Positions 290 to 29,256 of a stretch of 40,646 nucleotides of DNA are shown here, piece after piece; the stretch's first letter is position 1, and the number at the start of each line of letters is the position of its first letter. Under the pieces are notes generated by a model. It saw only the letters and a program-made list of their open reading frames with translations. It was not told the origin of the DNA and ran no database searches. The position numbers and the translations under genes were made by a program. The DNA is from Intoshia linei. Lineage: Eukaryota > Orthonectida > Rhopaluridae. The stretch spans positions 1-40,646 of the forward strand of contig LWCA01000199.1 of NCBI GenBank assembly GCA_001642005.1. The letters run 5' to 3'.

Positions 290-3200
290 AAAAAGAATGG
301 TATTGTAAAGATAGTGTTTTCGATGTCCGTTGCATCGAATTCAAGCCTTATTATGAAAAAACCTTCGGAGTTCCTCAAGTTCGCAAACCAATACCTCAAC
401 AAGAATCACGGTAATGCTTTTAATTAATTAATATAAAATATAAACGTCAAATAATATAAACAGATCAATCACCTTTCAATAAATATTTATGGTATATCTA
501 TTTGAAATGATTTATATATGTCTACATTCATGTTCAAAGTACATTGTACACATTATTTAATTAGTAAACTGACAGTCCCGGAAATTGCATAAAAAAATCT
601 ATATAAATATAATATAATAAATAAATATAATAATAAATAAATCTTAAGTTTTTTTTCCGCGCGAAAGTTAGATAAGCTTTAGTGTCAGAAACTTGTCTCT
701 TAACAACCAAACACCCAAATTTGCCTTTTTTAACTTTAAAAACTAATAGGCTTAGAATAATGAAGAAATTATAATTAATACAGCTTTTTCCAGTGAATAT
801 ACAGAAAAATTTTCAATCTCCTAAATTAACGTAATCATGGTCAAAAAGGATTATACTATATATTTATTATTATAATACAGAATATGTATTACAGATACTT
901 GTATTTATTAGATTAAACTGTAAATAAATGTACTTGTGGTTGATATAATGGATCAATTAAAAAAATAATTAAATATATTGATTTAGATACTGGGAAGCCA
1001 TAAACTCAATAGAAAATGAACAATTGGCAGACATGTCAACAATTTTCAAAGATTCAACTATAAAAACTAAAACTTCCTATAAAAATGCATTGAACCAAAT
1101 TACTAAACCGGAAATATTACTAAACGTAAATTAATAACTAAAATGCGAAAATATCAACATTATTCATTGTAAAATAATAAATTAACGCCCGTATCGGATG
1201 AACAAAAAATACGTTTCTACCTACTCTACTACCTATTCTGCCTACGTTTGGGCAGTTTTAACTTTTAATTAGTTTTAGAGGAGTGTTTCCTAACCGTGGG
1301 GATAGGTCCCACCTTTGGGTTTGACGAAAGTTTTGGTAGGGCATGTGAAACTTGGTGGGGCGTAACATATTTTGATGGGATTCGGGAAATTTTACGAATT
1401 AAGGGAATTATGAAAACTCTAGATTCATTTAATGTTCATTTTGTATAATACTAACTTGACTGTTATGTACTTTAAGACTTACCAATTTAAGAATTAAAGC
1501 TGATTTGGTCATAATAATGGTCGTGGAGAGCCAGCAAAAATCCCGGGCGCGATGGAAAATATAGACCCCTATAAATCAATTATTAAAAAAGGACCTCTAT
1601 ACATTAATTAATCGAACGTTCATTATCTAAAAATTAAAAATAACCATTGGAAATCGTATTGATTATCGAAAATATGATATACTTAAAAAATTTTTTATCA
1701 TTTTTCATTGAAAAATATCGGAAAATGTAGTAGCCCTGGTCATACTACCAAATTCATTAATCAAAAATATACTATTCAAATATAATGTTATAGACTCAGA
1801 AAATAGACGAATTAAGTAGTAGCGGAAAACTTTTACAAAACAATTGAACAAATTTATATACATAAATTTTAATGGGATCGTTATTGTTGCTTTGAATTGA
1901 GAAGCCTAATCTTAGCATTGTTTTTAATAGGCTCACTCGCTTACCGGCACGGATATCTAATTTATTTTTTTTTCATTTTTTTTAACTTGTTAGAATAGAA
2001 AATCCAGCCTCACAAAACTATGTTGTAGCAAAAGTAATAATTACTTCAAAGGCAATTTTAATCACAAACTGATGTGCATGCACATCAGTTAAGAACCATT
2101 GCCTTAAGGGATTAATCCACTTTTACAAATCCCTAAGAGAAAAATTCCAATTTTATTAAGCTTTAGAAGAAAAATTCAGTCTTACCAAACCTTTAAGGAA
2201 AATTCCACGTTTACCAATCCTTAAATGAAAAATTTACTTTTACAAACCTTAAAACGAAAAATCCGGTTTTACCAACCATCAAAGATTAAAACCTTAACTA
2301 AAAACATTAACTACACACTACACAAAATATACACTTTTTCAATTCATTAAGGGTAAAAGTGGATGTTTCTTTTTAGGGTTGGTAAAAGTAGGTTTTTCAT
2401 TTTAAGTTTGGTAAAATTCGATTTTACTATTAAGGGTTGGTAAAAGTGGAATTTTCCTTAAAGGTTTGGTAAAACTGGATTTTTCTTTTAAGGATCAGTA
2501 ATTTTGATTTTTAGTAAAAATGGTTGGATTTAAGTGAACCCCTTTAAAAATTATAGTTTTTGTAAAAAATAGTCACTGAATTAATAATGATTTTTTTTAA
2601 GTGGGACTTGTATTCAAAAGAGGGAAACATTGTTTTAGGATGAATGAAATTTTTTAATTTGTTTACATTTAAAAACAATAAATTAAAAAAATAAATAAAA
2701 ATATTACTTTTCTTATAAATTTTATTTTAATTGGTTAATATTTACCCTCTCTCCAATGCAATTATTAACTTATATCATTATTCATTATATTATTTCAATG
2801 TACATTATCCAATTACATTAAATTAAATGTAATTAATATCTAAATTTAAATTATTAGGAAATTAAACAAAATTATTACAATTTTTCGAAAAAAGCAATAA
2901 TGGATTATATCCTACTAGATAAAAACATGCAAAATTACTTGGAAATTAATACTACTGAAAACAAAATTTCTGAATACACCAATTGGATATATCCTTGGAA
3001 AGACTCAAAAACAGAAGCTACCAGTTTTATAGATATAAACTTATACACCGTCAACCCTATCATTTTTTATATTCAAACCGATTGTCTTATTACGTAAGTT
3101 TATTTATTTAAAATATAATGTCCAAAAATGTTAACATAATATATTATATTATTTTTATAGATTCAATTTTCCAAATGTTTTCAATTATAGTGAAATTACT

Positions 3201-6200
3201 AGTAAATTTCCAATAAAAATAGTGGAGTTGGTCAAATCCGTTACTAATCATTGTTCAATTTTCTCGTAATTACTTACAGTAGTTGTAGTTGGTGTCAGGC
3301 GACAACCTTTATCACAATTGGATACTTCATGAAACGTTCGTCCTACACCGATTATCCTCTGTTTGTACAAAGTATTCAACAATTAGTCATGTCATAAATC
3401 ACGTCATAGTTTGTACCGTGAAGTCTCCAATATTCGCCAATGTGGATATTTGCTCAAAAAAATTTTTTCCAAATGAAAATAAATCAAAAAAACTGAAACC
3501 CCATCATTTTTTTAAAATAAATGAAAATGAAATATTCCTAAAATTTTTGAATTGTCAATTTGGCGAACAGTCATAGTGTCAGTTAGTTTTAGTCATCTTT
3601 CAAATGATAAAAAATCTTAAATAAAAATTATCTAATAAGATTATATGACAAAAACTAATACTGGTAATTACGATTTTTATAAAGAGCCACTTGTCGCCAT
3701 TTTTTTGTCCATTCTTTGTCGTCTTTGATTAATTAAATCAGTATTATATTAAAAATTTTTAGAAACTATTTAAAAAACACGTGGCTAACTAATTGCATTC
3801 ATTTTATATCTACCAAAAGAAATGAAATAAATCATTTTGTATATAGTACAGAAAAGGTATGCTAATTAATTGATTAATTATGTTAATTTTAAAATGATTA
3901 ATTAAAATGTCCCAAAAATTTAGCTTGGAAAATTTAATAATATGACAAAATATTTTAATGTCATTGCAAAGTTGATGGAACTAGATTTGAGAAAATCCGT
4001 ATCTAACAATATTGAAAATCTTATTGATATTTTTTCACAATATCGAGATAAATCGAGCAATACTACGATCAACAACATTGAATTTTTGTATCTTGATATG
4101 GTATTTTTTAAAAATCAGTAAAAATCACTCAAATATTTTTTCATACATTTTATTTTAATTTATATTAATGCTAGACTGTATCGGAAGATTGTGAAATAAC
4201 ATATGAATACAATTCTGAAGAAATAATTACAATTTTTCAGGAAATTGTAAAATCTATATTAAATTCAACAAATGATTTACTCCGAATAGAACACGGTTTA
4301 TTTGTCAAATTACCGTATCAATCCAAAAAATTTATACGAAATTTGCAATATCATGAAGAATTTACTGTAAAATCTCTAAATATCATTGAGGAAATTGTTC
4401 TCATGTATGAACCTGATTTATTAAAGTAATATTTATAAATTTTTTAATTAAAGTAGCAGTGTACTAAAGAAATCGGTGTAATATAGAAAGGATAAACATC
4501 GTAAATACTTGGAATACACTTAATTTTTATAAGAAAATTTTTTATACCTTGAACCGATTAAAAAAATTCACTTTTCCAAAAAAATTCTGGTCGTGTATAG
4601 AATTTTCGAACCGGTAACGGGAACTGGGGAATTGTAGATAATGCTGTATTACTATTATTATAATAGTCAACGTTTTAGTTTCAATACCAATAATTACATA
4701 CATTTTGAGTATTTATTAAGTCCGGAAAGAATATTGGAATATGAATTATTTATCATGGATTCTCACAATGTTGACGAATATCGTAAAGTACTTGAAGATT
4801 TTTTGGATTACAGAACAACTATTCTATCATTGCCTTATAATTATTCATTAAAATTTTACAAGATTAATACCGAAAATTTACATAAGGTTAATAAAAATTT
4901 TTTATATAATTTGTTGTCGTATACCAAATCTAATTATACATTGATACATTTAGCGTCTAATAGAACGAATAGATTATTTAATGGATCTATACGCAAATAA
5001 TATCCTGTTATTATCCACAAATTTAAATAAAAGTATAAGTGCCAAGTATGACGAAATTGTTAATACACTATCTCAAACAACCCAAGAGATTGGTGAGATT
5101 GTTGATATGCAATTATACCAAGATACTTTGAATAAATTTGAATTAAACAATTTGGAGGAAAAAATAGAATTTTCAACACATTATTTATATTTTATATTGG
5201 AATATAAATTACTTTCTCGTGAAGACTTTGCACTAAACGACATTACCTTTTCGTGGAATAAGAGGATTCGACTTATTTTAAGTGCAAGGTACTATTAACT
5301 TTGGAAATTAAATTTTGTTAATAAAAAATTAAGAGAAGAAAGTTTAAAAAATGAAAAAAACAACGCCATTAATATTTTGGAACATAACATAAAAGTTTTA
5401 ATGACGGACTTTGAAAGTATTCATGAAAAAATTACCAACTTTAGAAATAAAGACCGTTTGGCTGATGCAAACTCAAATGTGGCAGAGTTGAATAAAATTT
5501 CGGATAAAATTGAGTTTTTAATTATTAAGGTAAATAATTTATATCATTAATTTTATAAAAATTAAAAAGTATGCATAATTGATAATTTAATGTAGAAAAA
5601 TAAATTCAACGAAGAAGAAGAATTATTGAATTTACCAAATCCGTCCAATTTTGACATTGTAAATTCAATATATTTCACAAAAGAACCATATGATAAATTA
5701 TGGGAAATTGGTGCAAATATACAAAAAAAACATAATGAATGGTTGGATGGGTGTATTCTTAATTTGGATGCAACAGAAATTGAAAATAGTGTAAGAATAT
5801 AAAATACCAAGTTTATACCAAATTTATAAATATTGAATTAGGTTCAATCAATGTGGCGTTCAATGTACAGACTGGTAAAGCAATTTTCGCATCCGTCCTT
5901 TAAAGGTCCCATGAAAGTAGCAAAGTCGATTAAATTAAAATTGGAAAAATTCCGAACTCACATGCCTTTAATTAATGTCATTTGTAGTCCAGGTTTAAAG
6001 CAACGACATTGGAATGAAATGGGATTGATTGTTGTTGTATTTTAATTGAATTGACTTTATAAATAGATTGGAAAAAGTATTGAACCAAATCAAGATACAA
6101 AATTGAATCAAATATTAAATAAAAATTTGGATTCATATGTTAATTTGTTATCTCCAATTTCTCAAAGAGCAGCCAAGGAATTTGGTGTTGAAAGTGTAAT

Positions 6201-9200
6201 TATTAATTTTTATGCATTTTTGTGATAGTTTTTACATTTTCTTTCAGATTCTAAATACAATGATCTCTGAATGGGAAAATATGGAATTGACTTTTATTAA
6301 TTATAAACAAAAGGATATTTACATTTTGGGAGATTTAGACAATATTCAATCAATATTAGATGATCATATCGTGAAATGTAAAACTTTAAAAAATTCTACT
6401 TTTTCGTCGCATATTGCTCAAGAAATTGTAGATTGGAGTAATCAGTTGGTAAATTTTTCATTATAACTACAAGTGTGTATTTCAGTGTTCATATCGAAAC
6501 ATCATATAATTCTACGAATAACAGGGTTGTAGCCTACATAAATACTATGACTAAATAGTCATACAACTTCTAGGGCAGTTTATTTATTCAGGGTTATAGT
6601 TTACGTGTCAATATCTTAAATTGACATCTTCACTTTCAAAAATTTATATTACAATTTTGACTACAAATTCACTTTGTATATTTTAAAATGGAACTTTGCC
6701 ATTTCAAGATATTGAAAGTAAAATTTTGTTTACCCCACTTTAACTTAAGAATTAATAAAAATAAGGATCGTAGAATCTTGAAAATAACTCAAATAATAAG
6801 TTGAAAGTCACTTTTTCCTGTACAAGTTTTAGGTTAGGTCTCAAAGTCTAAAAGTGACACCTTCACATTAAAAAATTTATATTGTGATTTTAACTACAAA
6901 TTTACTTTGTATATTTTGAAATGGAACTTTGTTATTTCAACAATGTTGAAAACAATATTTTTTTATCTCCCTATACAGCGAAAAATCAGGTTCGTAGAGT
7001 CTTGAAAATAACACATTGTTAGAACAGTTTTGTCCTGTGCAAGTTTTAGGTTAGGTGTCAAAGTCTAAAAGTGACACCTTCCCAATAAAAATTAATATTG
7101 CGATTTTAACTACACATTTACTTTGTATATTTTGAAATGGAACTTTGTTATTTCAACAATGTTCAAATTTTTTTGTTTGTTTAGATTAAACGTTAAAGTT
7201 TTACGGAGAAACTAAGAAACGCAGATACTTGGAAATACCACATTGTTAAGATAGTTTTTTCTTGGGCAGGTGATAGGTTAAGTTTAAATGTCTGAGATGG
7301 ACACGTTCATTGTAAAAAAAGCAAATTACAATATCAACAACGTTTACTTTCAATATTTTAAATTGATAATATTCAATTTTGAAATTAAAAATGTTTTTTA
7401 GAAAAACATAACCAGCGTTTCTTAAATGGGGCTTACAGTATGGGGCTGTATATAAAATATTACCCTATTACCATATTATCTTTAGACCAAAGTACAACAA
7501 GTTTTGGATATTTGGAGACATACGCAAATATCGTGGATATATTTTCAAGAAGTTTTTAATTATTCAAATATTTCTAACGAATTATCCGAACAACAGGAAT
7601 GTTTTGGAGAAATAAATGAAAAATGGTATAATTTTATATAAATAAAATGTAGAATTTAATCTACATTTTAGTTAGATTATAATTATAAGGTACATCCAGC
7701 TACGAGCATGTAGTTAAAATTAGCTTTAAATTTAAAATTTAAATTTTGATAGGAATTCAATTGTACAGAAAATGCTTGATAATAGCAAAGCTTTAATAAT
7801 TTTTAAAAATCCAGAAGTTTACGAAACACTAAACTTGGCTCTCGTAATTTTATATCCAAAAAACTAATAATAATTAATTTAGAATGTTATCGAAAAAATA
7901 AAAAGTGTTTTAGTCCAATATTTATCTGGTAAAATGAAAATTTTTCCGAGGTATACATTACATTATTTCTTGTGATAACATTTCATAACAATTTTTTTTT
8001 AAATTTAAAATTTCTGTAAAATTCGTGTCATGTTGAATCAATGCACTAATTAGTAATTAAATGACACTGCATTCAATTCAGTGCATTGTTACAATTTACG
8101 AATCGAACCTAATAAAAACTTACTGTTGATAACAATCGGGAATATCAGTCTCTACAGGGCTGAATCGTTTATAAATGTCATCTAAATGGGATTTTAGATT
8201 TTATTTTTTATCGGAAGATGAATTATTGGATATTTTAAGTGAATCAAAAAATTTAAAACGAATAGAAACAAATTTGAAAAAAATATATTCTGGATTTAAA
8301 AAACTAAAGATAAATGCATCAGATCCTTATCAAATTGATGGAATTATTTCAGACTATGGAGAAATTGTTATATTTATGAAGCCCATCAATATAGAAAAAT
8401 TTGATTTTCATGTAGAAAAATGGATTGTTGCTGTAATTTTATTTTTATTTCATAAATACACTGTACTCTATGTTTAGTTGGATAATATGATTATTTCTTC
8501 ATTGAAAAATCATCTTACACAATTAACTAATCAAGAATGGGACTATAAACAATTTATCAAAGTTGACAATATTAAAAAATTTCCATCACAAATTAATATT
8601 TTATGGTCTCAAACTATTTTTTGTTCTCAAATTGAAGAGGTAAGATAATTTTTTAATAACATATATTATATTTCTCTGCATACACTTTGAGCCATTGAAT
8701 ACTGATTATGTCATCTGGAGGAATGTGTTTAGTATCGGTTATCACTCTCTAAAAACTGTCTTGAAATTGAGTTTTTTTAATTTTAAGACTTTTAATTTTT
8801 TAATTAAACGGTATCACATTCACAGAAATTCAATTTTATTTAAGTAAAGGATAACTGAAAAGTGTTGAAAAAATTTAATTTAAAGCCGACTATTTTTTTA
8901 TTTCGTGTTTCGTGTGCATAGATTAAATTAAATTAAATCTAACATATGTTTTTTAATTTTAATGTATATATAGGCATATCAGAAACAAAGCGGTCTCAAC
9001 GAGTTGCTGGTAAAAGTGGAGACTACATTAAAAAACGCATTGGACATGAAACTAAATTTAAAAAAAGAGTACAAATTTGAAAATTTTAAATTGATGAGCA
9101 TTTGTTATCAAAACATATTAGTAGTACTGATGTATCAAAAAGATGTACTCAAACGATTACTAAAAAGTAAGATGGATAAAATACCATTCGAATGGATTTC

Positions 9201-12200
9201 TCAGATTCGATATTACATTGACGAATCAAGTAATAACTTGATAATAGAAAGCGTATACGGTAATTTAAACTATCAATATGAATATCTGGGTAATCAAGAT
9301 TCATTGATAATCACACCAATAACTGAAAAAGTGACAACATTTTTATTGTGTACATTTTCATTGATGAAAGGAGGAAATATATGGGGCCCTACTGCTACAG
9401 GGAAAAAGGCAATGGTAAAAGAATATTGTAAAAGGATTGGTAAAAACTACATTTGCCGAAATTGTTCAAATGGCGACCAAGAACTAACAAAGCTTTTTAA
9501 GGGAGTATTTCAAACTGGAGCATGTCTTCTTTTATCAGAATTAGATAGATTAAACCCAAAAACACAATTAATATTTATAGAACATTTAAAACATATTTGG
9601 AATGCATTTAGAACAAAAAATAGTGTAATTATTTTTAATGGTTTTGAAATTTGTGTAAATTTCGAATCTGTGATTTGTACAACTATTTGCACCAATTCGA
9701 TATCTCAAAATTCTATATCTGACGAAGTAATGTCAAGTTTTCGATCAGTTTCAATTATAAAACCAAATGTGGATATTATTGTAGCAAATAGTTTGTTTAT
9801 CCTTGGGATCAGTCAGTATCAATCACTCTCTGAAAAAATTGTCCATTTGTTTCAAATTTGTAAATACATGCTCAGTTCTCAATCTCACTACAATTTTGGA
9901 CTTGAAAATTTGAATATTGTGCTGAAATTTGTTAAATCTAAAATGAATGAAAATGTACTTTCCGAAACTGTAAATATTATTAAAATGGAGCAAGATATAG
10001 TTGAAAGTGCACTAAACCACATAATTTGGCCTACTCTATTACCCGATGATTCTACAAAATTTGCTAGAATTATTAAAAATTTTTTCGATTCAGACAAAGT
10101 CAAAAAAAATCCAACTATAGACTTGTTATTCAAAGAAATTATCAAAGAATTAAACTTTGGTTGGGAAGATGGCCAATGTACTAAAGTATTACAAATCCTG
10201 GAAATGATGAATTTCAAAAATTCGATATTACTAGTAGGTGAACCCATGTCAGGTAAAACTAGTTGTATTGAAATTTCTCGGGCTTTCATTAATAAATTGG
10301 ACAAATATCAAGCAATGACTTCATCAGAGGAAATTTTCAAAAAAATATTGATACATAAAATTTACCCATATTCTTTGACAAATACAGAAAACTATGGAAT
10401 ATACGATGCAAATCAAAGTGATTACAATGACGGAATAATATCATCAACTTTTCGTGAAATTTCAAAATCTCCAGATTCAAATTGGATCATTTTTGATGGA
10501 CCAATTGAAAATTCGTGGGTTGAAAATTTAACTACAACAATGACAAATAACCCTTACCTACTTTTCAAAAACGGAGAAACGATTCTGGTCAATAATACGA
10601 CAAATTTAATATTTGAAACGGCGCACATGTCGAATTGTTCACCAAATGTCATTAATCAGTGTGGGGTAATTTATTTTGACGCCACCAAAAATGTACATTG
10701 GAAATCAATCTTGTACTGCTGGAAGACAAATGTATTGAACAAAAATTTTGTAGGTTCCGTGTCTATTGCTGTAAAATTTTTTGTTAACCACCTCATTGAA
10801 CCCACAATAACGTATCTAAAATCTCACGTACCAAATGATATTATTGAAGGAGTTTCATTTAGTATAAAAATTGATAATTTTTGCAAAATGTTTTCAATCT
10901 TTCTCAAAAAAATTAAATGCCTCAATGAATCTGAAAATGAAAACGACAATGAAAACTCGGAAATGGAACCAGATGAAATGTTTGCATCGGCTTCAGAAAA
11001 ATCACTAATGTTGGAACAAATTAGTATGGCTATAGCTCAATGTCAGTTTTCTATAGTATGGTGTCTAGCTTCATTAATTCCCCAAAAATATGTCAATCCT
11101 TTTAGCACCTTTTTTATTAATCTCATTACTAATACTCTAAAAGAATATAACGAATCTGAAACCAAATACAAAGTACAAAAATCAGCTTTGTACCCTAAAC
11201 GGGGCACAGTGTTTGATTTTTACTATAAATTTACAACATTTGGCGCATGGGATCATTGGAGTAATTTGGTAAATTCAAAGCCTAGACGTGAAACCCTGAT
11301 AAATTTACAAAACTATATTGCAAATACGATAGAAAGCGAAAAACAATTATACTTTTTAAAGCTTTACAGTCAAGCTAGAATTCCTCTCATTATTTTTGGA
11401 CCTCCAGATAGTGGCAAAACTTTAATTGCCAGTACATATTTAAGTGAACGAAGGAGTATGTATTTAAAATTGAACGCATTCAAGACTGTAAGTTCAATTC
11501 GAAATACAATTCTTAATCGAATGCAGAGTTATCACAAAAATTTTCAAAATACTACTGATACTTTTCATATTGCAGTAGATGACATTAATAATGACGTCTT
11601 ACCTGAATCAGTAGACTTTTTACGCAATTTAATTGACAATGGAACTGTTTTAAACAGAAATAAATATGAACGTATCTTAGATCAAAATGTTACTCTTTTT
11701 GGTATGATGACGTCTCAATCATGCTCAAAAAAACCTTTATCCGTTAGGTTTTTAAGGTTATTTAATATTCTCACCATTCAAGAACTGTCACAACAAGTTA
11801 TATTCAATATTTTGCAAGACATTTTTAGTCATCATTTTAATAAAAAAAAATTTGATGTTACTTTAAAACATTTTACTCGCGTAATTTTTTTCTTCAATAG
11901 ATATTTCATTCATTTTCATTTTAGATATATATTACCGGTTTATTAAAGCTATATTCTTTGTCCAATGGAATTTTCAAACCTTCCGCCACCAATCCTCATT
12001 ATGGTTACAAAATCAAAGATTTAAAATTTGCTTTACAGGTACAGATATAGTCATATCTTATTATCATTATATCCTAACTTATACAATATGATACACGATT
12101 TTTGTTTGTGTGTGTGTCCTACTTTATTAAAATAAGTATTAGTCTTAGAATTTTATAAAGTCCACATTTCCATTACAGTTTTTTCCGGGGTGATAATAAG

Positions 12201-15200
12201 ATAAATTTCAACCTCCCAAACTGACATCTTACGGGTCAAAAACCCCAATTGTCCTTCGTTTTGAAAATCAAACGAGTTGGAGAATATACAAAAATATATA
12301 CGCTGATACGAATTTTAAAATCATAATCATTATCATAAATTTAAATTAAAAAAAAATTATATCTTTAGGGCCAAAACCCCAAATTCCCCTTCTTTTTTTT
12401 TGAAAGCAGCCCTAGAATTTCAAAAAAATTACAGGTGATACAGTTGTATCCTGTTAACACACACATAAAATTTCAATACGAATAAGTGACGACTTCACGG
12501 TCAAAAAAGCATTTTAGTATTCATATATACCAATTACATTACCAACTAACTTTTCAAGTAGCAAAGATAAAATTAATAGATTTTAATTTAATGTTAGAAT
12601 ATATATCCCTATTTCCTTTAATTTAGAATATTATTATATCTTCAACTTCCATCCTATTAACAGGGCCTTGGAGATCCAGCATTAGGCACTATAAAAAAAT
12701 TTTAAAAATGGGACCTCTATACATTGCTTAATCGATCGTTCATTATCTATAAATTAAAAATAACCGTTGGAAATCGCATTGGTTATCGAAATTTTGGTAA
12801 CTTAAGAAATTTCCAACATTAACTTTTAATAAAAAATTAATATTAAAATTAAAACCTATTAATAATAATAAAAAAGTAGACCTTTCATGATTTTAGACCG
12901 GCCATATGGCCATACCCCTCTCCACGGCCCTTCCCTTTAATACTTTTCTTTGTCTAAAGTTAAATTTACATTAGCGTTTCCCAAATGCCGGTCCACGAAA
13001 TAATTTTTACTAATTAAAAGTCAACTTATATGTTGTATTACGTTTTATATCAAAAATTTTTTAATCTAGCCTAGTACTTTCGCTTTAATATTCCCCGATA
13101 AATTTAATAATTTATTACCGGTTCTCCGTAAAAAAAATTTGGCAACCTTTGCTTTACATCTGTACCATGTTGAGAACATGTGTCATAAACCTTGTTAAAC
13201 ATGACAGTATTTAAAATGCCTCCAAAAAAAATTACTAGAAAAAGTGACCAGTGTGCACCTGGAAAAGTAATATTGCCATTTTTAAATATTTAATCTATAG
13301 GGCTTTTTAATGCTTGATCCAAAAATTTTGATAGAATTGGATACAAAGGATACAAATGCAAAACTATACAAATTTTGGTTACATGAAATGGTAAACACAT
13401 TTGATGATCAATTAGTATGTAATGAAGATCATGAAAAGTTTTATGAAATACTAAAGGTATTATAGCTTGTCATACTTTTTGATTTATTTTAATTAAAAAT
13501 TAAAGACGGTTTATGAAGAATCATTTAAATCGAGATTGAGCAGTTTATTTGGAAGTTCGTTATTTAGTTTAAAAAAAACGGACGTCAATGTGTATAGAAA
13601 ATTAATTGGCCAAATAACTTTTATCTCATTATCTCCAGAAATTCCATATAATGAAATAGACGATATATCAGAAATAAAAGAGGTAAGTGTATATAAATTC
13701 ATCAAGTTTCCAATCACTTTCAGTCTCTTTGTTACTTCTGCTATGTTTACAATAAGTTTATTATATTGTTGATAACCCGTGATTTTATATTAATTGGTTC
13801 ACGTATATCGTAACAATGTAGTATTTTATAACAGTACACTTTCATTTTAAAAAAGGGATGCTTAGGAAAAGGGGTTAGAAATGTTAGAAAACATTAATTT
13901 AGATAAACTGTGAATAAAATGATCGAGATCCCATTAATAATCCGTCAAAGACGAAATAATTGCATTTATGTACATTTCATTTTTAATAATAAAAGTAGAA
14001 ACTGACAAATAGTATCAATGATTACAATAATGATTACCCGACAAAAATTGATGTCGTTTTATTTGACAAATCTATTAAAAATATTATTAAAATTTACAAA
14101 ATCTTGTCTAACGGAGGAGGACATGCATTATTAATTGGTAACGTTTTATAAATATTAAATATGTAAATAAAAATAAAAATTTATATAGGGCCCAGTGATT
14201 CTGAACGCAAATCATCAGTATTTTTGGCATCATACATGTTGGGTTATAAAATTTTTGTTCCACAAGTTTCGAGATATTACGACAACGAGAATTGGAACGC
14301 TGATTTACGAAAATTAATGCGTTATTGTGGTATTGGTAATCAACCAGCATCATTTGTTATCAGTGACACGCATATTAAGGTACGCTATTTTAACATTTAA
14401 AAAAGTATTAAAATTAAACTTTAATTTTTTAGTACTTTTATTTTTTAAGTGATATCAATTCACTATGTCACAAGGGTTTTGTAGCAGACATTTACAGTAA
14501 GCAAGATTTATGTGAAATTCAAGAAAATGTATTTTTTACCAAATTTTTAGTATATTCATTGTAGATGTACCCTATATTGAATGAAATGCAGAATCTCAAT
14601 CCAAATGTTGAAATTACGGATGTGGCTGCATTGGAGTTGTTTTACAAAACAATTTTGAAAAATGTGCACGTGGTTTTAAGTTTAAACAATTTAAACACAA
14701 AATACAACGAATGGTTACATTACACACCTATTTGTTTGAGAAAATGTGTCATTACTTGGTTTGAGGTATCAATATAAAGTTAAAATTAGTTAATTCTTTT
14801 TATATAACATAGCCAATGAACACTGATGCATATTCTGGTATAACGGAAAATATATTTAGTAATATAGAAATGTCTGATGAAGATAGAAACAAGTGCCATA
14901 CTATGATTAATTATTTTTATGATACGAGTATGATGATATCTAAAAAGTACATTTATAGCATATTTTAACTCTTGAATTGAATAGATTGAATAAAGAAAAT
15001 GGAACTCCAATATATATAACTCCAAGTTCTTATGTGGATTGTCTAAATACTTTTAAAAAATTCATTGATATTGATCGTATGAAGTTATTTGTAAGAATAG
15101 AGCTTTATAGAAAGGGCACGGAGACACTTAATACCTCAGAGAAAGCAGTAAGATTAATGCACAATTAAATATAGATATGTCACTTTCATCAGGCTTTTTG

Positions 15201-18200
15201 GTGAATTTATAGTTGTTTAAAGTTGGTAAATAATATTTTATTCCCCCAAATGTTCCTGGAAAAGTGCACTGAAAATCTTTACAAATAAACATTACAATTG
15301 TAGATTGTAATCATGAAGAATGATATCAAAAAACGACAACCTGAGCTCCAACGAATGTCTGATGAAACTATACATTTGATTAAAGAAATTGAAGAAGAGA
15401 ATGTACAAATAGAAGCAATCAAACATAATTTAGAAAATGAAAAGCTTTTATCTAACCAAATTGCTGAAGAAGCTCAACAAATTCGAGTATGATGAATTAT
15501 ATTAGATTTCACAACAAATTTAGAATGAATGTGAATATGAACTATCTTTGGCTATTCCCGCTATGCAAACATCGATAACGTCTCTAAATAAGTTAAAGCA
15601 AAGTGACATTTCTATGTAATGAATTATTATTAATAATTTTTTAATATTAATAAAAAATTTTAATAATGTTACATTTTTAATTTCTGATAGACTAAAGGCC
15701 ATGCAAAATCCTCCTCAAGGAGTAAAATTAGTTATGGAAGCTATTTGCTTGTTGAAAGTTAATTTTATTTCACAATTATTGATTTTATTTTTATTTTAAT
15801 AGGGATTAAAACCAACAAAAAAAATTATTGATGGTAAGAATGTGGATGATTTTTGGGGGTGTGCAAAAAAAGTAAAATTACACTGTTTTATGTCTAATGT
15901 ATATTTATCTATAGATGATGGGAGATTTAAGATTTTTAGAATCATTAAAGGAATTTGATAAGAATAATTTGTCAAATAATGTAATGAAAATTATAAATGA
16001 TAGATATGTTCAAAATCCTTATTTTGTTCCAGAAAAAATAAAAATCATTTCTTCTGCATGTGAAGGTCTTTGTAAATGGGTTATTGCTTTGAACGATTAT
16101 CATAATGCTATGAAAGTAATTGTTTGGTTTATCAATATCAAATGGGTTTCAATTTTTTTAAAGAATCATTGAAAAAATTTTTAATGCACACGAAATTTGT
16201 AGGGTAAAATTAGGGGACTTTTTAGTTTAAAGGTTAAGAGTCATATTAAACAGGTCATGATATAAAGTAAATGTATGTTTTCATTAATTCGTTATAAATT
16301 ACAGATTGTCATACCGAAACAAAAAAGTTTAAAAGAAGCAGAAAAGGTTTATGAACAGCAAGCTCAACAATTTAACCAAAAAACTAAAGAACTTGAAACA
16401 ATTGAAATGAAATTACAAAATCAAAATAAATTTTTAAAAAATAAAATTGCTGAAGAAAAGGTTATTTTATATTTTAACAAATAAGCAGTGGCGGCTCGTC
16501 ATTCCAGGGATGCAGCCTTCCAGAATTTTGAAAAATACATAACAAATTATTCACAAAATTATAATTTTATAATACATACATATTGTAGTACATACTGTAT
16601 AAGTACTACTATTTTAGTACTATTATAATAATTATTAATAAGTATTATTAATTAACTACAGAGTTACATAGCTTTGTTAGTGTAATGCTGTTTCTATATC
16701 GATCTCAATTATCGTTGAATTGGTAGGTATAAAATTTTTCACGACACCCCTTTAAGTTTGGTTCAAAAAAACAATCTTAATAACCCCTCTTGAAATTTTG
16801 CTTCAAAAAAAATCTTAAAAACCCTTCTTGAAAGTTTGGTTCAAAAAAAAATCTAAAAACCCCTCTTGAAAGTTTGATTAAAAAAATTTCCTAAAAACCC
16901 ACATTAAAAGTTTGGTTTAAATAAAAATCTAAAAAACCCCCCTTGAAAGTTTGGTTCAAAAAAAAATCGGAAAAAACCTTCCTGAAAGTTTGGTTCAAAA
17001 AAAAAGTCTTAAAAATCCTTTTAAAATTTGGTTTTAAAAAAATTTTAAGAAACGCACCTTAAAATTTGGTTTACAAATTTACGAAACACAAGTTGAAAGT
17101 TTGGTTCAAAAAAAATATCTTAAAAACCCCTGTTAAAAGTTTGATTCAAAAAAAACCTTAAAAACCCCTGTTGAAAGTTTGATTTAAAAAATTTCCTAAA
17201 AACCCACATTAAAAGTTTCGTTTAAATAAAAATCTAAAAAACCCCCCTTGAAAGTTTGGTTCAAATAAAATCTGAAAAAACCCCCCTGAAAGTTTGGTTC
17301 AAAAAAAAATCTTAAAAACCCCTTTAAAGTTAAGTTTAAAAAAATTCTAAGAAACGCACCTTAAAATTTAGTTTACAAATTTACGAAACACAAGTTGAAA
17401 GTTTTACACATTTTACGACTAACCCATAGATTCTATGCAACATATATATCATTAATGTTTGATATTATTAATGATAATATTTTATTATTAAACATTATTA
17501 ATTATCCATTAATACAATTATATAATAGAATTTATCCAAAGATATTGACATGTGCAATAAAAAAATTACAAGAGCTTTAAATTTAATTGCAGGGTTGTTA
17601 GAAGAAAGAGATCGATGGAATCAGGTTAATTATCAAATTTACAATTTACATATTTGTAGTTATACTTGGAGTTGGTAGAAATGATATTGTCTAAAATAGT
17701 TGTTAAATTTTATTTTTCATAATAGAGTTTGTAGAATTTTATTGATCATAAAAAATTTTCGAAAAGTGGATTGTGTCAAAAAGTGTTAGTAAATTTAGAT
17801 TTATAGTAAAATGATGATAAACTTAGATTTTGTTTAAATGATTTGGTAAATTTGGTATATGTCCAAAAGTGATTGTAAAATGCAATTTTTTTTAAAATTT
17901 TTTATAGATTAAATTGTGTTCAAAAGGGTTGATTAAAGTGAATTTGGCTAAACAGTACTGATACATTTGTATTTTTTATAAAAGTATTGGTAAAATTGAA
18001 TTTGTCAGAAAAAAATTTTATTAGAATAGATTGCGCCCTAAGGGTTGGTAAAAGTGGATTTTGCCCAAAAATTTTGTTAAATTTATATTTTTCATTACAT
18101 GGTTGAAAACAATGAATTTATGATAAAAAAAGTTTATTAAAGTAGATGTACCAAAAATGGTTGATAAATTGAGATTTCTCATAAAAGGTTAAATAAAAGT

Positions 18201-21200
18201 GGAATTTTCATTGTTAAATTAAAACATCAAGTCAAGAGTCTTAGAGAGGTCGTTAGAGCTATATGACTAATGCATACATTTGTAGTTTGTGAAAAAATAT
18301 TTTAGGGACCTATTTTTTATTTTCAGTTACTTATAGCTGGGTAGATTTGGCTCGGCCCTTCCACCACCCGGAAAATTAAAAATAGTCACCTTAAAAATTC
18401 ACTCAAACGATGCGTAATGACATATACCAGCCATCTCTCTACGGGTTGTAATTGACGGTTTTTATATTGAAAAATATACTAAATTTTCAATACTCAATTT
18501 GGAAAAATGCTGACCTGAAAAAAGTCTCGTAAACGACTAGTAGTAATGATTTATAAATCCAAAATTTTTAAAACACAAAATTTTATAGTTGGTTAAAGAT
18601 TTTGCTATAAATTCCCTAAATGATGCTGAAAAATTACCAAAATTTTTAAAGTTAGTAAGATTTCTGTCGTTTCAATATTTATTTTCAAATTAAAAAATAA
18701 TTTATGAAATATTTGACTCAGTGTTTAAAAAAGATGACAATCCTTAATTATAGAGATTGATTAATTTATAATTTTACAAATCCATCTTTAATAAATATGT
18801 AGGAATTGATAAAATTACAAGATCGATTTGATAATATTCTCAGCGATTTATTATTATCATCAGCTATAATAACATACATGTCATCATTCAGTGACACCAA
18901 GAGAAGAGTAATTATTCTTAAAATTATATATATATATATATAAATCAGTGATTCTCGTTGTTCGGTGTCTTACCTCAATTTGTGGTCAAGCGGCAAATTG
19001 AGTTTTTCAAAAATCAATCAATATCTCGCTCAAGCTGTAGTTGGTTTAATTTTATTCGTGTGTAACGCAGCGAACGTACTTTTGATATATGTTAAGATTG
19101 GAACACGGCACCTGAAAATGGTCCTGAACTACTGACTTAAATTGATAAATTTAATAAATTTAATAAAATTTGCAATTAGGAGTGTACGAAGGATTGGGTT
19201 ATTAAAATGAATAAAATAAATTTCAATTTATCTGTCGGATTTTCAATAAAAAGTGTTTTTTCAGAGCCAACTACTATTAAAAATTGGATAATGTGTGGAT
19301 TACCTAATGATGAGTAAGTTTATTAAATTTTTTTTACTTTTGTAATTTTTATAGGTTTTCAATTGAAAATGCAATTATATGTTATAAATCATTGCATTAT
19401 CCTTTTATAATCGACCCACTGGGTCAAGCAAATGATTGGCTGAAATGTAATGAAAAGAATAATAAAATTTTGGTTCTTAACATGAATATGGAAGATTTTT
19501 TACCACGTTTAGAAGATTGCATGCAGGTATAAACTTTATAAACTTGTCATAAATATTGCCCAAATTTATAATTTTTGTTAAATAAATTGTATGACTGAAT
19601 GATTTAGATGGGACAACCCTGTTTATTGGAAAATATATCTGAATATTTTGGTTCAACAATGGATTCCATTTTATCTCCAACAATAATAAAAACATCTCAT
19701 TCATTATTGTTTAAAGTTGGAAATAATGAATTTCCATTCAATCCAGATTTCAGACTGTTTATGACCACTTTAAATTGTGAACCTCAAATCGATAACTCAA
19801 CTCTTTCTAAAGTAATTTCATCAAATATCATTTTAATTTTACAAATCTGAAATTTTAACATAATTTAGATTAATGTTGTCAATTTTTTGCCTACAAAAGA
19901 GGGAATTATACAACAGTTGATGCGCGTCATTTCATTTTATGAACAACCTTCACTGGAACGAGAACATTCTCACTTAATTAATGTTGAAACTTTAAATCGA
20001 TTCAGATTACAGGAAGTAGAATCTAAAATACTTAAAGTTGTTTCAAATATTAAGGTAATAATGTATTTGAAAAAATAAGAAAAGGTGCCAAAACCGCTAT
20101 GAATATTATGTGTCAATTTCCAATATATTATGGGACCCTAATCGAAAACCACTGCCTTAGAGAGTTTTATTTTATTAAATTTGAAGGTTTTTCATATCTA
20201 AAGCATTGAAGATTAGAAACAAAAAATTGATACATATGTAGTGTAAAATTGACTACTATATAAAATATTTAGGGCGAAATACTAAATAACGAAGAAGCAA
20301 TAGAAATTTTATCTGAAAGTCAAAAACTTGCCACAGATTTAATTGAAAAGCAAGAAATTAACAAAAAATTGTTGATTAGTATAGAAGAGAACAGAAATTT
20401 ATATAGAATGGTTTAAATTGTAATTTTATTTAAAATTTAAAATAAATTTAGTTGTCCGTTGAAGCCAGTATTATATTTTATTCAATGTATCACATGCGGC
20501 TCAGTAATATTATGTATGAATTTTCCTTCAAAACATTTGTCAAGCTTTTTACTCAGGTACTACATATCTTAAGTTGAAATTTAACAACAATTATAATTTT
20601 CATATCTTATTCCATACGATATAATTTACAATTTAGTCATTGAAAGGATCCACCAAACACACCAAAATAGAAATTCGTATAAAAAAAATTTTTAACAAAT
20701 TAATGCAAAATATTGTATTATATGTTAATCATAGCTACTTTCAAAAAGACAGATTAAGATTACTATTGTTGATGGTTCTCAAATTGGAAAAATTTAGGTA
20801 TACTCATTGTATTATTAATAATGTAAAATGGCAAGAATGATCAATAAAATAATTTATTAACCAATATTTTTGAGATTATTTTCAAAAAAATATTGAATAA
20901 TTAAAATAACTAGAATTTAACAAAATTTATAATTCCAAGACAGTTTTCTTTCCATTTTTGACATGTGATATCGAGAAAAAATTTCAACCTCAGAAATTTT
21001 CCCCTGCCCGAATCAAAAACACATTTTAAATTAAAAATGTAATCTACGAATCTTAGATATCGTTGGCAGAGCGGAATCTATTTTACGCAATACCTGATTC
21101 CGGGACATTTTGATTCAAATGGGTGCCTCTCATTTTTCAAAATTAAGCAGTGCTCAATAAAAACTTTAAAAAAATTGTATTTTTGATAATCATAACTGTT

Positions 21201-24200
21201 TTGTGTGTCCAATTTAAACTGTAAGTCCAGTAAGATCCTGGAGAGATGGCTTGGATTACATGACATTACGTATCGTTTTAAAATATTTTAGGATATATTT
21301 TTGATTTTTAACGCCGGCGGCCTCAGTAGGTTCAGCTCTGATCGATAATACACTTTTTACGTAGAATTCAATTCAGCGACATACGTTTGAGTGATATTAT
21401 TTTGAGCGATGTATAGTTACAGCAATACATCTTAAAGCAGCGGTCGGCAACCAATGTTCACATAATAATTTTTGGTGGCCCTTTGAGTAAATATGTAAAA
21501 TTTACATTGTAAATTATTTATTTTTCAACTTTTAAACAGTTTTAAATATTTTCTATTATAATTGGCTCATTATAATCATTTTAATACTGAATTTTCAGAT
21601 CGTCCCGGATTTTATTTTGTTGAATATACTAGAAACTTTTCTCTTCAATTAAAATTGAAATCTATCATGTGTAAATTTTCAAAAACGGACCCACATATTT
21701 TTTTTATATAAAAAAGTGACGCACGAGATGCAAAAGGTTGCCGACCCCTGTCTTAGAGCGATATAATCATTGACTTTGTTAATTAATCATACTATTTATT
21801 TTTTGAAAATTGTGGTTTTTTTAATGACAATGACCAAAATGTAGGGTTTTTAAGGGATTTTTTTTCTACTATTTTTTTATTGACTTTGAAGATAATTTTG
21901 GGAACAAAGTTTTGTAGGGTTTTTAATAGTGTTTTTCACCCAATTTTTAAAGATTTTGAAGGTAATTTTGAGACCAAAAATTTGGTAGGTTTTTGAAGGA
22001 AATAGTATTTTTTACTCAATTTTTAAACATTTTAAAGGCAATTTTGGGGTTCAAATTTTGTATGGTTTAGAAGGGAATATTTAACATTTTATGGAATCTT
22101 CAAAATCTTTAAAAATTGGGTGAAAAAAATGTTCTATTAAAAACCCTACGAAATCTTATGACCAAAATCTTGAAAAATGGTAGAAAAAAATTCCCTTAAA
22201 ACCCCTACAAAATTTTCGTCTAAAATTATCAATACAAGATAATAAAAATAATAAATAAATATGAATAAAGAAACCCACTATAATTTTGTGAAAACATCAA
22301 TACATGTATGATAAATTAGTAAAATCGATGATTATGTCGCTCAAACGAATGTCACTCCAGAGAATGGACGTCGAATAATATATTTAAATTTTATAAATTG
22401 GCATATTCGCATTTTGAAAATTTCAAATCTTTAGTTCATCACGAGGTTTAGAAATTTTTTAAGAGTCCGTAAAAAAATTTTCTTGAAATGTGGTAAATAG
22501 GTCCGTAGATTTTTAGAATTTTAAATTTAGGAACCACCACTTTACTGCATTGTATTACATTTTATAGTAAAAATTAGTAATTTTACCTAATCAGTGATCA
22601 CACTTATGCATTCATTGTATTTAGAAAAATCATTAATCAAGACGATATTAATGCTTTGTTAAAACCCTATGACTATATTGTATATACAAAAACACAAAAA
22701 GTCTCTCAAGATGAAAAAAAAAATGAAATTTTGAATAATATTTCTGAAATTCCAAGATTAGAAAACGTCCCACTACATTACAACCAACACGTAATGTGAA
22801 TTACTTTATAATTACAATGTACATTCTAATATTACCGTTTTAGCAAGAGTTATTTGAAAATTTAATCAATAGTCAAAATCCTCTCCAATTTAAACATGAA
22901 GAATTCAATTATTCTATATTCGAAAAATTGTTAATTTTAAAATACTTCCATCCAGAAAAGGTATAAACATTTAATATTTTGTATTATTGTATTTTTTAAA
23001 TTTATTATTTTTAATATAAAATAAATTTAATGTAATGTTTTTAATATTAGCCATATTAATAATTTAAGAAGCGATTAACATTTAAATAATTTATTAACAT
23101 GTAAATATTTTATAAAAACGATAGTACTTATTATAATAATAATTTTAGTTGACTATGTATCTAAACCAATATGTGAATATAATTATTGGTAAAGAAAAGG
23201 GAAAATTCGTCCAATTCATAAATGTACTCAATAATATAATAAAATTATCCAAAAAAGATAAAGTTATAATAAAAGTGTTTTCATCCTTTTATATTGATGA
23301 TACAAACATAATAACTGGATTGGCAGAATCTAAAAGTAAGCAAATGTATTACTAGTATATTATAATATAACTATATATTTAAACTTAAGATATAAAATTG
23401 ACAAAATGTTTGATATACAGAAATACGAAAGAGGAAATACTTTCAATACTAACAAAAGGTATAATAAACGGAGAATGGTTATTGATTGAATCAGCACATT
23501 TATCAATATTACAAATGGAATGGATAGAATATTTTGTTATTAACGTAATTTTAATAATTATAATTTAAAAAAATTTAAATGATTTGCTTTAGATGCCAGT
23601 TAAAAAAAATAGTATTAATGAAAATTTCAGATTATTCATAACCACTAAAGAAACCAACAAATTCCCAGTGTTTTTGATTAAAAAAGCTATTAAATTCATT
23701 CATGAAAGTTCTCATAATTTTAAAACATATTTGGATGAATCGAAACAAGAAATTATGCAAAATATTAATAAAAATGTTTCTAGTTTGAATTATTTGGTAA
23801 ATTTACAATTTATTATTTTGGTAATTATTTACCAAATTAATAGTGTAATTAGACATTCTTAACACTTTGCATGGTGTTTTGAAGCTAAACTACATGAGTA
23901 GTAATTAGATTAATTCCACGTTGAGAATGTCTGATGTGCATGGAAATTTTTAAATAAAATTTAGAAAATTTTATTTTACATCACATACACCCATGCCTGT
24001 ATTCAAGGACGTGAGTTATTCAACACTGTTGGTTATAATGACAATTACAATTTCCACGATATCTATCTGGATGATTTTAAGCATCTCATGAATGTAATTT
24101 TCAATTTTCAATTGACCAATTATAAATTAAAAAATTTTAAAATTAAGATAATATCCGAGAGTTATTCAGACAATTACGAGTTGTTGGAAACTTATAGGTT

Positions 24201-27200
24201 TGAAACGGTCGAATATTTGGCTAAGGAAATTTATACAAAGCAATTAATAAATAGTCATGATGAAATAACGATATGTTCAATTCTGAAACAAATGTTGCTT
24301 GATCCAATGACTAAAGATGTACCAAATAAATACATGACGAAACTAAATTTCCCCGTTTGTGGTATGTATAATTTGGATAAAATTGAAAGATTCGATGAAT
24401 TTATTGAAAGTTTACCAGATTACAACAGCTCTACTGTATTTAATTTGATACAATTTAATAGTAATCATTTAAATTTCTAGTTGTATGGGCTCACTGAAAA
24501 TATATCCGCTCGTCAATCTTTGTCTGAAACAAGTGAATTACTGTATAGTGTTACGTCTCTTTTTGATCAAAAGGTTAGATGCTGTTTTAATATTATCATT
24601 TATTCTAATATAGAATTTATCCAAAAAAATTCGTGGAATTGACGTACACGTTTTGGAAACAATTTTGAAAGATTTTTCATCCCATCAAATTGAGTTAATC
24701 CAAGACGAAGTAATAAATAATTTACGTGTTAATAATAATTATAATTATTTTAGAGTTTGTTAAAAATGAAGAAAAATATTAATAGTCCCATAATAGAATT
24801 CCTTAATGATGAAATCAAAATGCATAATATTATTTTCAAAAAAATTTACACTGACACCCTCCTTATTTATGATAATATCAAAAACAATATAATAACTGAC
24901 GATCAAAACATTCAGATTGTCTCAGACTGTCTTGTAGATAATAAGGTATTATTATATTCTTCATCTTGAAAATGAAACTAAATCAGTTTCTCAACCCTTG
25001 ATAGATGTAATGTTTTTTAAATTTGATAACAGACTAGATTGACTGTTATGTACTTTGTACAAACAGAACCTAGCTCTGCCTAGGGCGGACTTTTTTAATC
25101 GTAACAAAAAATAAATTAAATAAGAAAGCTTAAAAATGCTATTTTTTACTATTATCAATCCTTTAAAGTAGTGATTCCCAAACTTGTTTCACAATAGACC
25201 AGTCATTTAACATTTATGATTTTAAAATTCGTATCAGCGTATATATTTTTTTAAATTCTCCAACTCGTTTGATTTTCAAAAAGAGGAACAATTAGGGTTT
25301 TTGACCGGTAAGATTTGAGTTTGGGAGGTTGAAATGTATCTTATAATACGTCCCGGAAAAAACTGTAATTCAAATGTGGACTTTATAAAATTCTAAGACA
25401 GGTAGTTATTTAAATAAAGCGTAACACAGACACACACAAACAAAAATCGCGTAGCATATTATATAAGTTAGGATACTAATCAAAGTAGTTTAAAGAATCC
25501 TGTAACTGTTTTCATTCAAAAATAAGATATTTTGTGGTTTTGACGGTGAAGATGCTAATTTCTCAATTTGAAATGTATCTTACGTTCTGAATCAGATAAA
25601 TGAGACTTAGAATGTTTGTTATATCAATAAATGGTTACAGACCGACAGACACACATTTTTAGCAACTTTAACTTGCCTATATTTAATAGGTAAGGTAAAG
25701 GATATTATAAATTCAATTTTTTTTATAAGTATACATTCATTTCCAATTTCTCACAAGGTCGTATCAAATTGTGAAAAAGTCATAACTTTTCCTTTGTATT
25801 AGTTCACTCCAATATTCAAAACAATTTATTTAAAATTTTCCAGTGTTTATGTCTACCTCATTAGACGGTATGACCCTGATTAAAAAATTTATCAATTTTA
25901 AATAAAATTTTACATTACAATTCATAAAATGTGAATAAAAATTAAAAAATAGATTCCACCATCTTGGTATGTCATAAAGAACATATGCTCATCTCATACC
26001 TGTGCTTCTTTCTTAGATTATAAAAAACAACAATTGCAGTATACTCAGGTAAAAATTAAAATTAACATGAAAAAATTAAAAATTATCTTTAAATTTAGAA
26101 ATTGTTTGAAAACCGTCAGCACAATGCTACCTACTGGATAGGTGCATTTTTCTACCCATCTCGCTTTTTGATATCAATTTTACAATTTAATTCTATTCGT
26201 CGACGTGTTCCGATTAGCAATCTTATCAACACGTTTAAAATAGCTACTACTAAACTCAAAAAAGCACGATCTAATTTATCAATCCTTGTGGTAATTACCT
26301 TTTTTTATTACTGGCTTGTCTGTTTCGTGTTTAGTTGAATTGGAATAAAAGTAGATGCTTAAATCAGTGGTTCCTGATTGGAAGTCCTTGGACCCTTTCT
26401 CATCAAAAACTATTTTCCTGGGGTCCGTGAGATTTAAATAAAATATAAAAAAATTTTATCAACTTTTGTTAATTTTTATAGGAGACTTTAATATTTATTA
26501 CAGATTTTCCAAATGTTGGGAATTTATCCCAAAGCCTGGACGACCGGTACATTATTATTTAAAAAATTCCATTTTAAAACCTCAGGGAAAAATCGACTTT
26601 TACCGATATTTTATTGAAAAATCCCCTTTTTCAAATATTTTTTTGAAAAACACGATTTCATCAAATCTTATCACAAAAACCTCTTATTCGAACCTCAAAA
26701 TAAAAATCCAATTTTAGAAATGCATAAGGTAAATATCCTCTTTTTCCAATATTTTTTTGAAAAAACTATTTTACCAAATCTTATGAGAAATAACTTCCTA
26801 ATCCAAAATCCAATATTACCCACCCTTAATGAAAAAATCCCCTTTTTCCCATATATTTTTGAAAAAAATGATTTTACCAAATCTTAAGAAAAAACCTTTT
26901 TTTCATTATTGTTTTATATTTCATGTTTCCGTTGGGATCCAAAAAAATAAATATTTTTAAATTAACTTTTTATTCAAAATTTAAATAACATTTGAATCGT
27001 GAACAACCGGCTTAAATTGATTTCATTAAATAATATAAATTTAGAATGAATCGTATCAAATGTATGGGTTGCACATTCACGGTGCTTTGTGGGACCCAAA
27101 AATGAAAAACCTTCAAGTTTTGCATGATAAATCAACATTTAGTGAATTTCCAAATGTAAATTTTTTGTATTTAAGACCAGTGCTGCCCACCTTTATCGTT

Positions 27201-28303: not shown

Positions 28304-28339
28304 CTCAATTTAATAATTTATAATAATACAATAAATACG
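28304..28339 (-). promoter_or_regulatory. 36-bp FCF1-TMED spacer: possible polycistronic junction
   Basis: Read on the minus strand, the spacer is T/A-rich, contains ATTAAA and ends in TTGAG directly before the TMED ATG. An AG abutting the start codon behind a T-rich tract could be a trans-splice acceptor, but 36 bp also could simply mean that TMED transcription starts within FCF1. Not decidable from sequence alone. Confidence 0.3.
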
Positions 28340-29198: not shown

Positions 29199-29256
29199 TA
29201 CGAATTATCACACAAGTTAAATTAGTTTAAATGTATCTTTATTTTCGGTAACCAAC
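29199..29256. promoter_or_regulatory. 58-bp divergent start-to-start interval of FCF1 and GLRX5
   Basis: Everything upstream of both start codons before the next gene is 58 bp, so the two genes must share one bidirectional promoter or place control elements within each other. I see no TATA box that I would defend in such AT-rich sequence. Confidence 0.6.

Follow-up and report, generated by a model that had tools for sequence, protein, structure and literature searches.

A DNAH3-derived dynein heavy chain with a degenerate AAA1 site and a conserved microtubule-binding tip in the orthonectid Intoshia linei

The 40,646-nucleotide contig LWCA01000199.1 of the orthonectid Intoshia linei (GenBank assembly GCA_001642005.1), which was analysed over its whole length and is called the window below, carries a gene for a dynein heavy chain in which most of the catalytic residues of the AAA1 site have been replaced and the microtubule-binding tip is conserved (Table 1); both the contig and this gene are labelled C79. 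The gene model comprises 57 exons and 3856 codons followed by a terminal stop, with no internal stop in its final version; 55 of its 56 introns are GT-AG, the single GC-AG intron (26264-26481) lying near the 3' end, and the median intron is 67 nt long, a median of 57 bp having been reported for I. linei (PMC6543705), the assembly of which is small (34.65 Mb) and AT-rich. The model was built with a splice-aware aligner written for this analysis, with an environmental DNAH3 (P0001) and the animal's own DNAH7 (C849) as guides. It begins near DNAH3 residue 252, so that the N-terminus lies outside it, and the exons in 20797-22844, its least certain stretch, were chosen manually from two solutions of the aligner. 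Earlier passes yielded one stop in the N-terminal half, two shifts in the C-terminal half when guided by C127, and one stop, at 21490, when guided by C849. Because the aligner penalises stops, it contributes to the openness of the frame across the 57 exons, a caveat from which the 969-codon exon is exempt. All the AAA1-AAA3 motifs sit within an unbroken, intronless frame of 990 residues (8974-11943), and this long exon is present in one copy only in the assembly, with no second allele. Thus, of the claim made in an earlier note on this DNA, namely an intact frame of 3963 residues over 57 exons, the exon number and the open frame stand and the residue count is close. Pfam matches (AAA_6, AAA_7, Dynein_AAA_lid and AAA_lid_11) and end-to-end alignment to DNAH3 and DNAH7 reveal the dynein heavy chain layout, with tail and linker, AAA1-AAA6, stalk and tip in order and AAA6 weak.

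To which dynein family does this gene belong? Against PDB chains, the 990-residue frame scores 338 bits with DNAH3, 303 with DNAH7 and 301 with DNAH12, and the stem ranks the families in the same order (DNAH3, 370 and 337 bits; DNAH7, 321 and 317; DNAH12, 259 and 248). Relatives were sought with nearly the whole C79 chain as the query and scored over residues 900-2700; among the best 120 of 223 relatives, to which all counts of relatives below refer, about 110 bear the name DNAH3 or DYH3, five are called DNAH7 and one DNAH12. The top match reaches 877 bits and the DNAH12-named one 721; none of the 120 exceeds 31% identity to C79, and no sister species came up. The stalk alone fails to separate the families (DNAH12, 422; DNAH3, 420; DNAH7, 406 in PDB scores). 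The tree branches in the AAA1-AAA2 region measure 7.76 for C79, about 10 for C1219, a second DNAH3-derived gene described below, and 4.72 for C38, a fast-evolving DNAH6-like paralogue; in the stalk region, they measure 1.43, 2.87 and 3.45, respectively, and there the DNAH3 rows do not form one clade and C1219 groups with the long-branched C38. In the approximately unbiased test, also with the DNAH3 rows not recovered as a clade, placement of the long C79 branch with DNAH3 gave p 0.10, with DNAH7 p 0.051 and with DNAH12 p 0.026. Branches of this length in C79 and C1219 do not allow a placement, and the family assignment is therefore based on score margins rather than on the tree; by score, C79 is DNAH3-derived, and the DNAH3/7/12 grouping of the earlier note is narrowed to DNAH3 by the stem and whole-protein scores. 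The 370-bit stem match, PDB 9fqr chain Xx, is labelled 'putative malate dehydrogenase 1B' but scores like DNAH3; the label looks swapped.

According to a review (PMC4879348), AAA1 of all dynein isoforms possesses a complete catalytic set, with the Walker B Asp and the Walker A Thr coordinating the magnesium ion. Nine residues of this site were identified by alignment: three Gly/Lys positions and the Thr of Walker A, the Asp and Glu of Walker B, the sensor-I Asn, the presumed sensor-II Arg and the arginine finger borne by AAA2 (the sensor-II position, like those of the AAA3 arginines, was assigned in this analysis). Across these positions C79 reads G G K K S E C E Q, four of the nine being kept, including the Walker A lysine and the Walker B glutamate; both Mg-coordinating residues are gone, along with sensor I, the presumed sensor II and the arginine finger. 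The comparison rows, consisting of 10 outside sequences and 10 paralogues from the same assembly, read G G K T D E N R R at every readable column (C368 and C982 stop short of the finger column). Both AAA1 Walker patterns are found in 120 of the 120 relatives, and looser patterns for sensor I, SPATVSRCG, AAA3 Walker A and AAA4 in 117, 119, 117 and 112, respectively; these patterns were matched anywhere in the protein, and at least one miss (P0118, sensor I) carries the Asn by alignment. The full AAA1 catalytic set that characterises an ATP-driven dynein motor is not present in C79. The AAA1 loss that the earlier note had deduced from GPTATGKK and from a Ser-Glu in place of Asp-Glu is therefore borne out and extends to both sensors, the second of them presumed, and to the finger; the positions given there for GPTATGKK, LLSELDRL and GPSDSERKS are exact.

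Over AAA1 as a whole, C79 is 30.7% identical to the DNAH3 of Anneissia, compared with a mean of 87.3% (minimum 80.3%) for 28 other DNAH3 proteins and 80.7% for the DNAH7 control. In an AlphaFold2 model of the 990-residue fragment, the predicted local distance difference test (pLDDT) is mostly 28-42, up to 60, over AAA1 and mostly 58-93 over AAA2-AAA3. In the control, a fragment of the canonical C127, the first 150 residues are also low (26-47), followed by 47-67 over residues 151-270 and 67-92 thereafter, so that the values for C79 AAA1 are below those of a control that is itself low there and the comparison is not clean. The 50 matches listed for this model by VIA-align are dynein motor structures, many of them spanning only about residues 370-968.

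The P-loops of AAA2 and AAA3 are standard, as had been claimed, GEPMSGKTS and GPPDSGKT both fitting GxxxxGKT, and in AAA2 the Asp is kept alongside the P-loop. The AAA3 site is only partly canonical: the P-loop and the Asp pair of Walker B are kept, and the sensor-I stretch and the arginines borne by AAA4 are altered. The AAA4 P-loop is broken, again as claimed, but this loss carries less weight because canonical DNAH3 is already atypical at AAA4 (GxGGSGRQS, with GGSGRQS in the loop).

What, then, has been maintained in this protein? Conservation was gauged against 29 DNAH3 proteins (30 picked from the best 120 relatives, minus that of Seison, which grouped with DNAH7/12), with domain bounds set on Anneissia DNAH3 that are approximate. 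C79 keeps 50/64 near-invariant residues in the stem, 40/86 in the linker, 58/136 in AAA1, 33/73 in AAA2, 17/31 in AAA3, 25/54 in AAA4, 48/64 in the stalk region, 39/64 in AAA5, 3/13 in AAA6 and 55/135 in the C-terminal part; the animal's own DNAH7 control, C849, keeps 81-100% in each part (its stem is covered in 28 columns only). When gaps are counted as losses, the difference between AAA1 (58/140) and the stalk (48/64) yields a Fisher p of 1e-5 for C79, 3e-5 for C1219 and 0.29 for the DNAH7 control. In the core of the tip, C79, C1219 and the control each retain 17 of 18 near-invariant residues, in agreement with the conserved microtubule tip of the earlier note. Compared with Anneissia DNAH3, the C79 stem (29.7% identity) falls inside the range of the 28 other DNAH3 proteins (mean 40.0, minimum 28.5), and the distal stalk and tip (52.0%) just under theirs (mean 66.8, minimum 56.7).

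The disrupted frame typical of a decaying pseudogene is not seen either in the 969-codon exon or in the final 57-exon model, both of which are open. In 30 simulated runs of random substitution of the C79 coding sequence with intron composition, a mean of 22 stops had accumulated when protein identity fell to 95%, and 39 when it fell to 90%. Judged by its length, the long exon should have received roughly a quarter of them, and none is observed there. Because the neutral simulation predicts approximately 22 stops at 5% divergence and the final model contains none, the frame appears to have been maintained over the greater part of the divergence, although C79 may have been released from constraint very recently.

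The second DNAH3-derived dynein of the assembly, C1219 (about 4496-23430), was modelled in two halves, of 26 exons and then 12. Both halves are free of stops and shifts, the second with C849 as the guide; if C79 takes this role, the second half needs one shift. Its stem prefers DNAH3 among PDB chains (428 and 372 bits, versus 242 for DNAH7), as does its stalk (207 and 200, versus 181 for DNAH12 and 180 for DNAH7); its AAA1-AAA2 stretch scores 113 with a protist chain, 109 with DNAH7 and 102 with DNAH3, and its C-terminal third matches poorly. Like C79, it has lost AAA1 and kept the P-loops of AAA2 (GPIFTGKST) and AAA3 (GDKQSGKSF) along with the tip. Unlike in C79, the AAA1 P-loop is gone altogether, with two of seven readable site residues kept (N G A S R E E), AAA4 retains GxxxxGK without the Ser/Thr (NGKIGTGKIK), and AAA5 and the C-terminus are weaker. 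The two stems, 22.0% identical, show no greater closeness to one another than to that of canonical DNAH3 (29.7% for C79 and 22.9% for C1219). Both genes depart from the consensus at 235 of 717 common near-invariant columns (191 expected if independent), with the same replacement at 38 columns (permutation mean 28.6, p 0.019). This signal is too weak for us to adopt a common degenerate ancestor of the two genes; judging from the sequences, AAA1 may have been lost separately or with a shared onset.

Of the 12 modelled dynein loci with an AAA1 match, 10 keep the readable site residues, and C79 and C1219 are the two that have lost most of them. C849 is a DNAH7 with a canonical AAA1 (1127 bits versus 955 for DNAH3; the first pass of this control model left a single mis-spliced stretch with two stops, and the N-terminus is off the contig), and C982 is DNAH12-like, with AAA1 canonical where readable (644 bits versus 586 for DNAH7). 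The fast-evolving C38 retains all nine AAA1 residues, so that a high rate is not in itself enough to account for the loss of AAA1. The 34.65 Mb assembly, which is possibly incomplete, yielded no canonical DNAH3, and a search with a DNAH3 stem recovered no high-identity copy across the N-terminal part specific to this subfamily, the only hits beyond C79 and C1219 being weak pieces, including one on C940 at 30-38% identity. Thus, the canonical orthologue in the DNAH3/7/12 group that the earlier note had named, in combination with a neutral dN/dS, as the refuting case exists for DNAH7 and DNAH12 and was not found, within the limits of this assembly, for DNAH3 itself. A few peculiarities of these other loci should be recorded. 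The AAA2 P-loop of C982 is GEPFSAKST, with Ala in place of the G of GK; the AAA4 P-loop of C38 is changed (GCQSTGKRR), and its spliced model has one frameshift, with stops in AAA5. A weak thirteenth match, to AAA_6, outside the set (C935:47898-48506), lies within an open frame of 3968 residues, possibly another giant AAA protein.

Table 1. Features of the window, with canonical motifs in parentheses
Feature	Position	Strand	Remark
DNAH3-derived dynein heavy chain	2858..27668	+	spliced alignment to P0001 and C849
Tail/stem and most of linker, 17 exons	2858..8639	+	best PDB match DNAH3
Single 969-codon exon: linker end, AAA1, AAA2, most of AAA3	8974..11880	+	
AAA1 Walker A, GPTATGKK (GPAGTGKT)	9385..9408	+	
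AAA1 Walker B, LLSELDRL (CFDEFNRI)	9529..9552	+	Asp->Ser, Glu kept
AAA1 sensor-I stretch, TTICTNSISQ (ITMNPGYAGR)	9679..9708	+	Asn->Cys
AAA2 Walker A, GEPMSGKTS	10237..10263	+	kept
AAA2-borne arginine finger for AAA1, SPNVINQCG (SPATVSRCG)	10639..10665	+	Arg->Gln
AAA3 Walker A, GPPDSGKT	11398..11421	+	kept
AAA3 Walker B, VDDIN	11575..11595	+	DD kept
AAA3 sensor-I stretch, MMTSQSCSKK (AMGPPGGGRN)	11704..11733	+	
AAA4 Walker A, GPSDSERKS (DNAH3 GIGGSGRQS)	14137..14214	+	broken; split by intron 14138-14188
AAA4 KYNEWLHYTP (FRNRLRMFPSL)	14700..14729	+	replaces bearer of arginines assigned to AAA3 site
Most of distal stalk and microtubule-binding tip	15524..16319	+	best conserved motor part; 38/46 near-invariant residues over aligned stretch
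Final exon, with the C-terminus and the stop codon	27450..27668	+	spliced model
emp24/gp25L (TMED) gene	27680-28309	-	
Glutaredoxin gene	29221-29689	+	
167-residue frame of near-identical repeats of ~42 residues	35734-36237	-	weak sub-threshold VPS28 match

Among the neighbours of the dynein gene in the window, a protein search with the TMED product matched only a 131-residue record and no near relative, and the repeat frame is probably a minisatellite. Searches for COX1 and for an arthropod cuticle protein family both came back empty, the control of the latter giving no match either.

How could a dynein with such a motor be of use? In the known cycle, ATP bound at AAA1 causes the ring to close and the tip to release the microtubule, and hydrolysis and product release reset the linker (PMC7215579); human DNAH3 is described as the heavy chain of the single-headed inner arm dynein c (PMC10266980). 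The reading to which we lean, although with little more than even confidence, is that C79 is a retained DNAH3-type heavy chain that has turned into an ATPase-dead pseudo-motor tethering axonemal doublets. Under this hypothesis, the tail would still dock to one doublet and the stalk tip would still grip the neighbouring one. AAA1 would no longer run the Mg-ATP cycle and, as a consequence, there would be neither ATP-triggered release nor a swing of the linker; the nucleotides at AAA2 and AAA3 would serve as structural pins of the ring, and the product would be a static or slipping cross-link, a tether or brake rather than a force generator. The sequence pattern fits a static cross-linker, the tip being kept and hydrolysis predicted to be absent; the lack of hydrolysis, the assembly of the ring, the axonemal location and the tethering function are all features that we infer. 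The structural, possibly non-motile inner-arm dynein proposed in the earlier note points in the same direction, in view of the intact frame, the conserved tip and the lost AAA1, with non-motility itself only probable. The degenerating sperm axoneme that the note offered as an alternative gains no support from these data. Several considerations weigh against the tethering hypothesis. Nucleotide binding at AAA1 is possible, to judge from the residues present, because the Walker A lysine and the Walker B glutamate survive; without an ATP cycle, the tip may either grip tightly or slip; the erosion of the ring beyond AAA1 (45% of near-invariant residues kept in AAA2, 46% in AAA4, 23% in AAA6 and 40% in the C-terminus) fits a general relaxation; and the scoring of the aligner contributed to the stop-free 57-exon chain, with one or two stops or shifts still present in earlier passes. 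A more far-reaching version, which we advance only tentatively and consider rather less probable than its negation, holds that, in this lineage, two DNAH3-derived pseudo-motors that lost AAA1 separately, with tail and tip maintained by selection, now make up inner arm c, turning a force-generating arm into a passive doublet tether alongside DNAH7, DNAH12 and other arms that are still active.

The main rival of the tethering hypothesis is slow decay, whereby DNAH3 would have become dispensable in this lineage and its two copies would be eroding under weak constraint, with the tip the last part to go. The linker, AAA1-AAA4, AAA6 and the C-terminus of C79 indeed keep only 23-54% of the near-invariant DNAH3 residues (60% in AAA5), and the branches are very long (7.76 for C79 in AAA1-AAA2). 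However, both the 969-codon exon and the final 57-exon model lack internal stops, whereas neutral drift would have produced some 22 over the coding sequence at 5% divergence, the tip core is retained in both genes to the same extent, 17/18, as in a canonical paralogue, and the features kept and lost are nearly identical in C79 and C1219; we consider decay unlikely, although it deserves to be taken seriously. The survival of the AAA1 lysine and Walker B glutamate, together with GPPDSGKT and VDDIN in AAA3, could be read differently, as the signs of a modified but working motor in which AAA3 took over hydrolysis or AAA1 turns over slowly. Such a motor would have to manage with an AAA3 that has lost its sensor-I stretch and the AAA4-borne arginines and with an AAA1 devoid of both Mg coordinators (roles as given in PMC4879348), sensor I and the finger, which makes it improbable. 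Finally, the whole pattern might be an artefact, that is, a misassembly, a wrong gene model or a chimeric pseudogene, and the single contig, the home-made splice model, the GC-AG intron near the 3' end and the low certainty at 20797-22844 all give some substance to this suspicion. Nevertheless, the AAA1-AAA3 motifs all belong to one intronless frame of 990 residues, the long exon is single-copy in the assembly and C1219 repeats a similar pattern, and so this explanation has, in our opinion, very little chance of being correct.

Compared with known dyneins, C79 is closest to DNAH3 (inner arm dynein c), its best match in the stem, in AAA1-AAA3 and in the whole-protein search, with the same domain order; the difference is the loss of most of the AAA1 catalytic set, the Walker A and B motifs being present in all of the best 120 relatives. 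DNHD1, a human orphan dynein-like 'ghost gene', is described as suspected of decay yet retained (PMC8754002), much as C79 could be; DNHD1 is an orphan lineage, whereas C79 is DNAH3-derived, and the likeness is one of description. DNAH12, an inner-arm chain, has also been called non-canonical and was reported to lack a typical microtubule-binding domain (PMC11949491), which would make it the mirror case of C79, with the tip said to be missing in the former and kept in the latter. In our alignments, the DNAH12 chain 9fqr_PW extends across stalk and tip without a large gap, that report notwithstanding. Among the matches listed from the open-licence PMC literature, as judged by titles and the beginnings of abstracts, there was no report of an AAA1-dead chain of DNAH3 or another standard axonemal subfamily present in two copies with conserved tips.

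C79 and C1219, two DNAH3-derived chains of one animal, thus break the rule of the complete AAA1 set as stated in the review cited above (PMC4879348), with a tip core as conserved as that of a paralogue with a canonical AAA1. If the tethering hypothesis is true, they would represent a natural AAA1-dead dynein, and the respective shares of force generation and of docking or tethering in the job of the inner arm would become testable.

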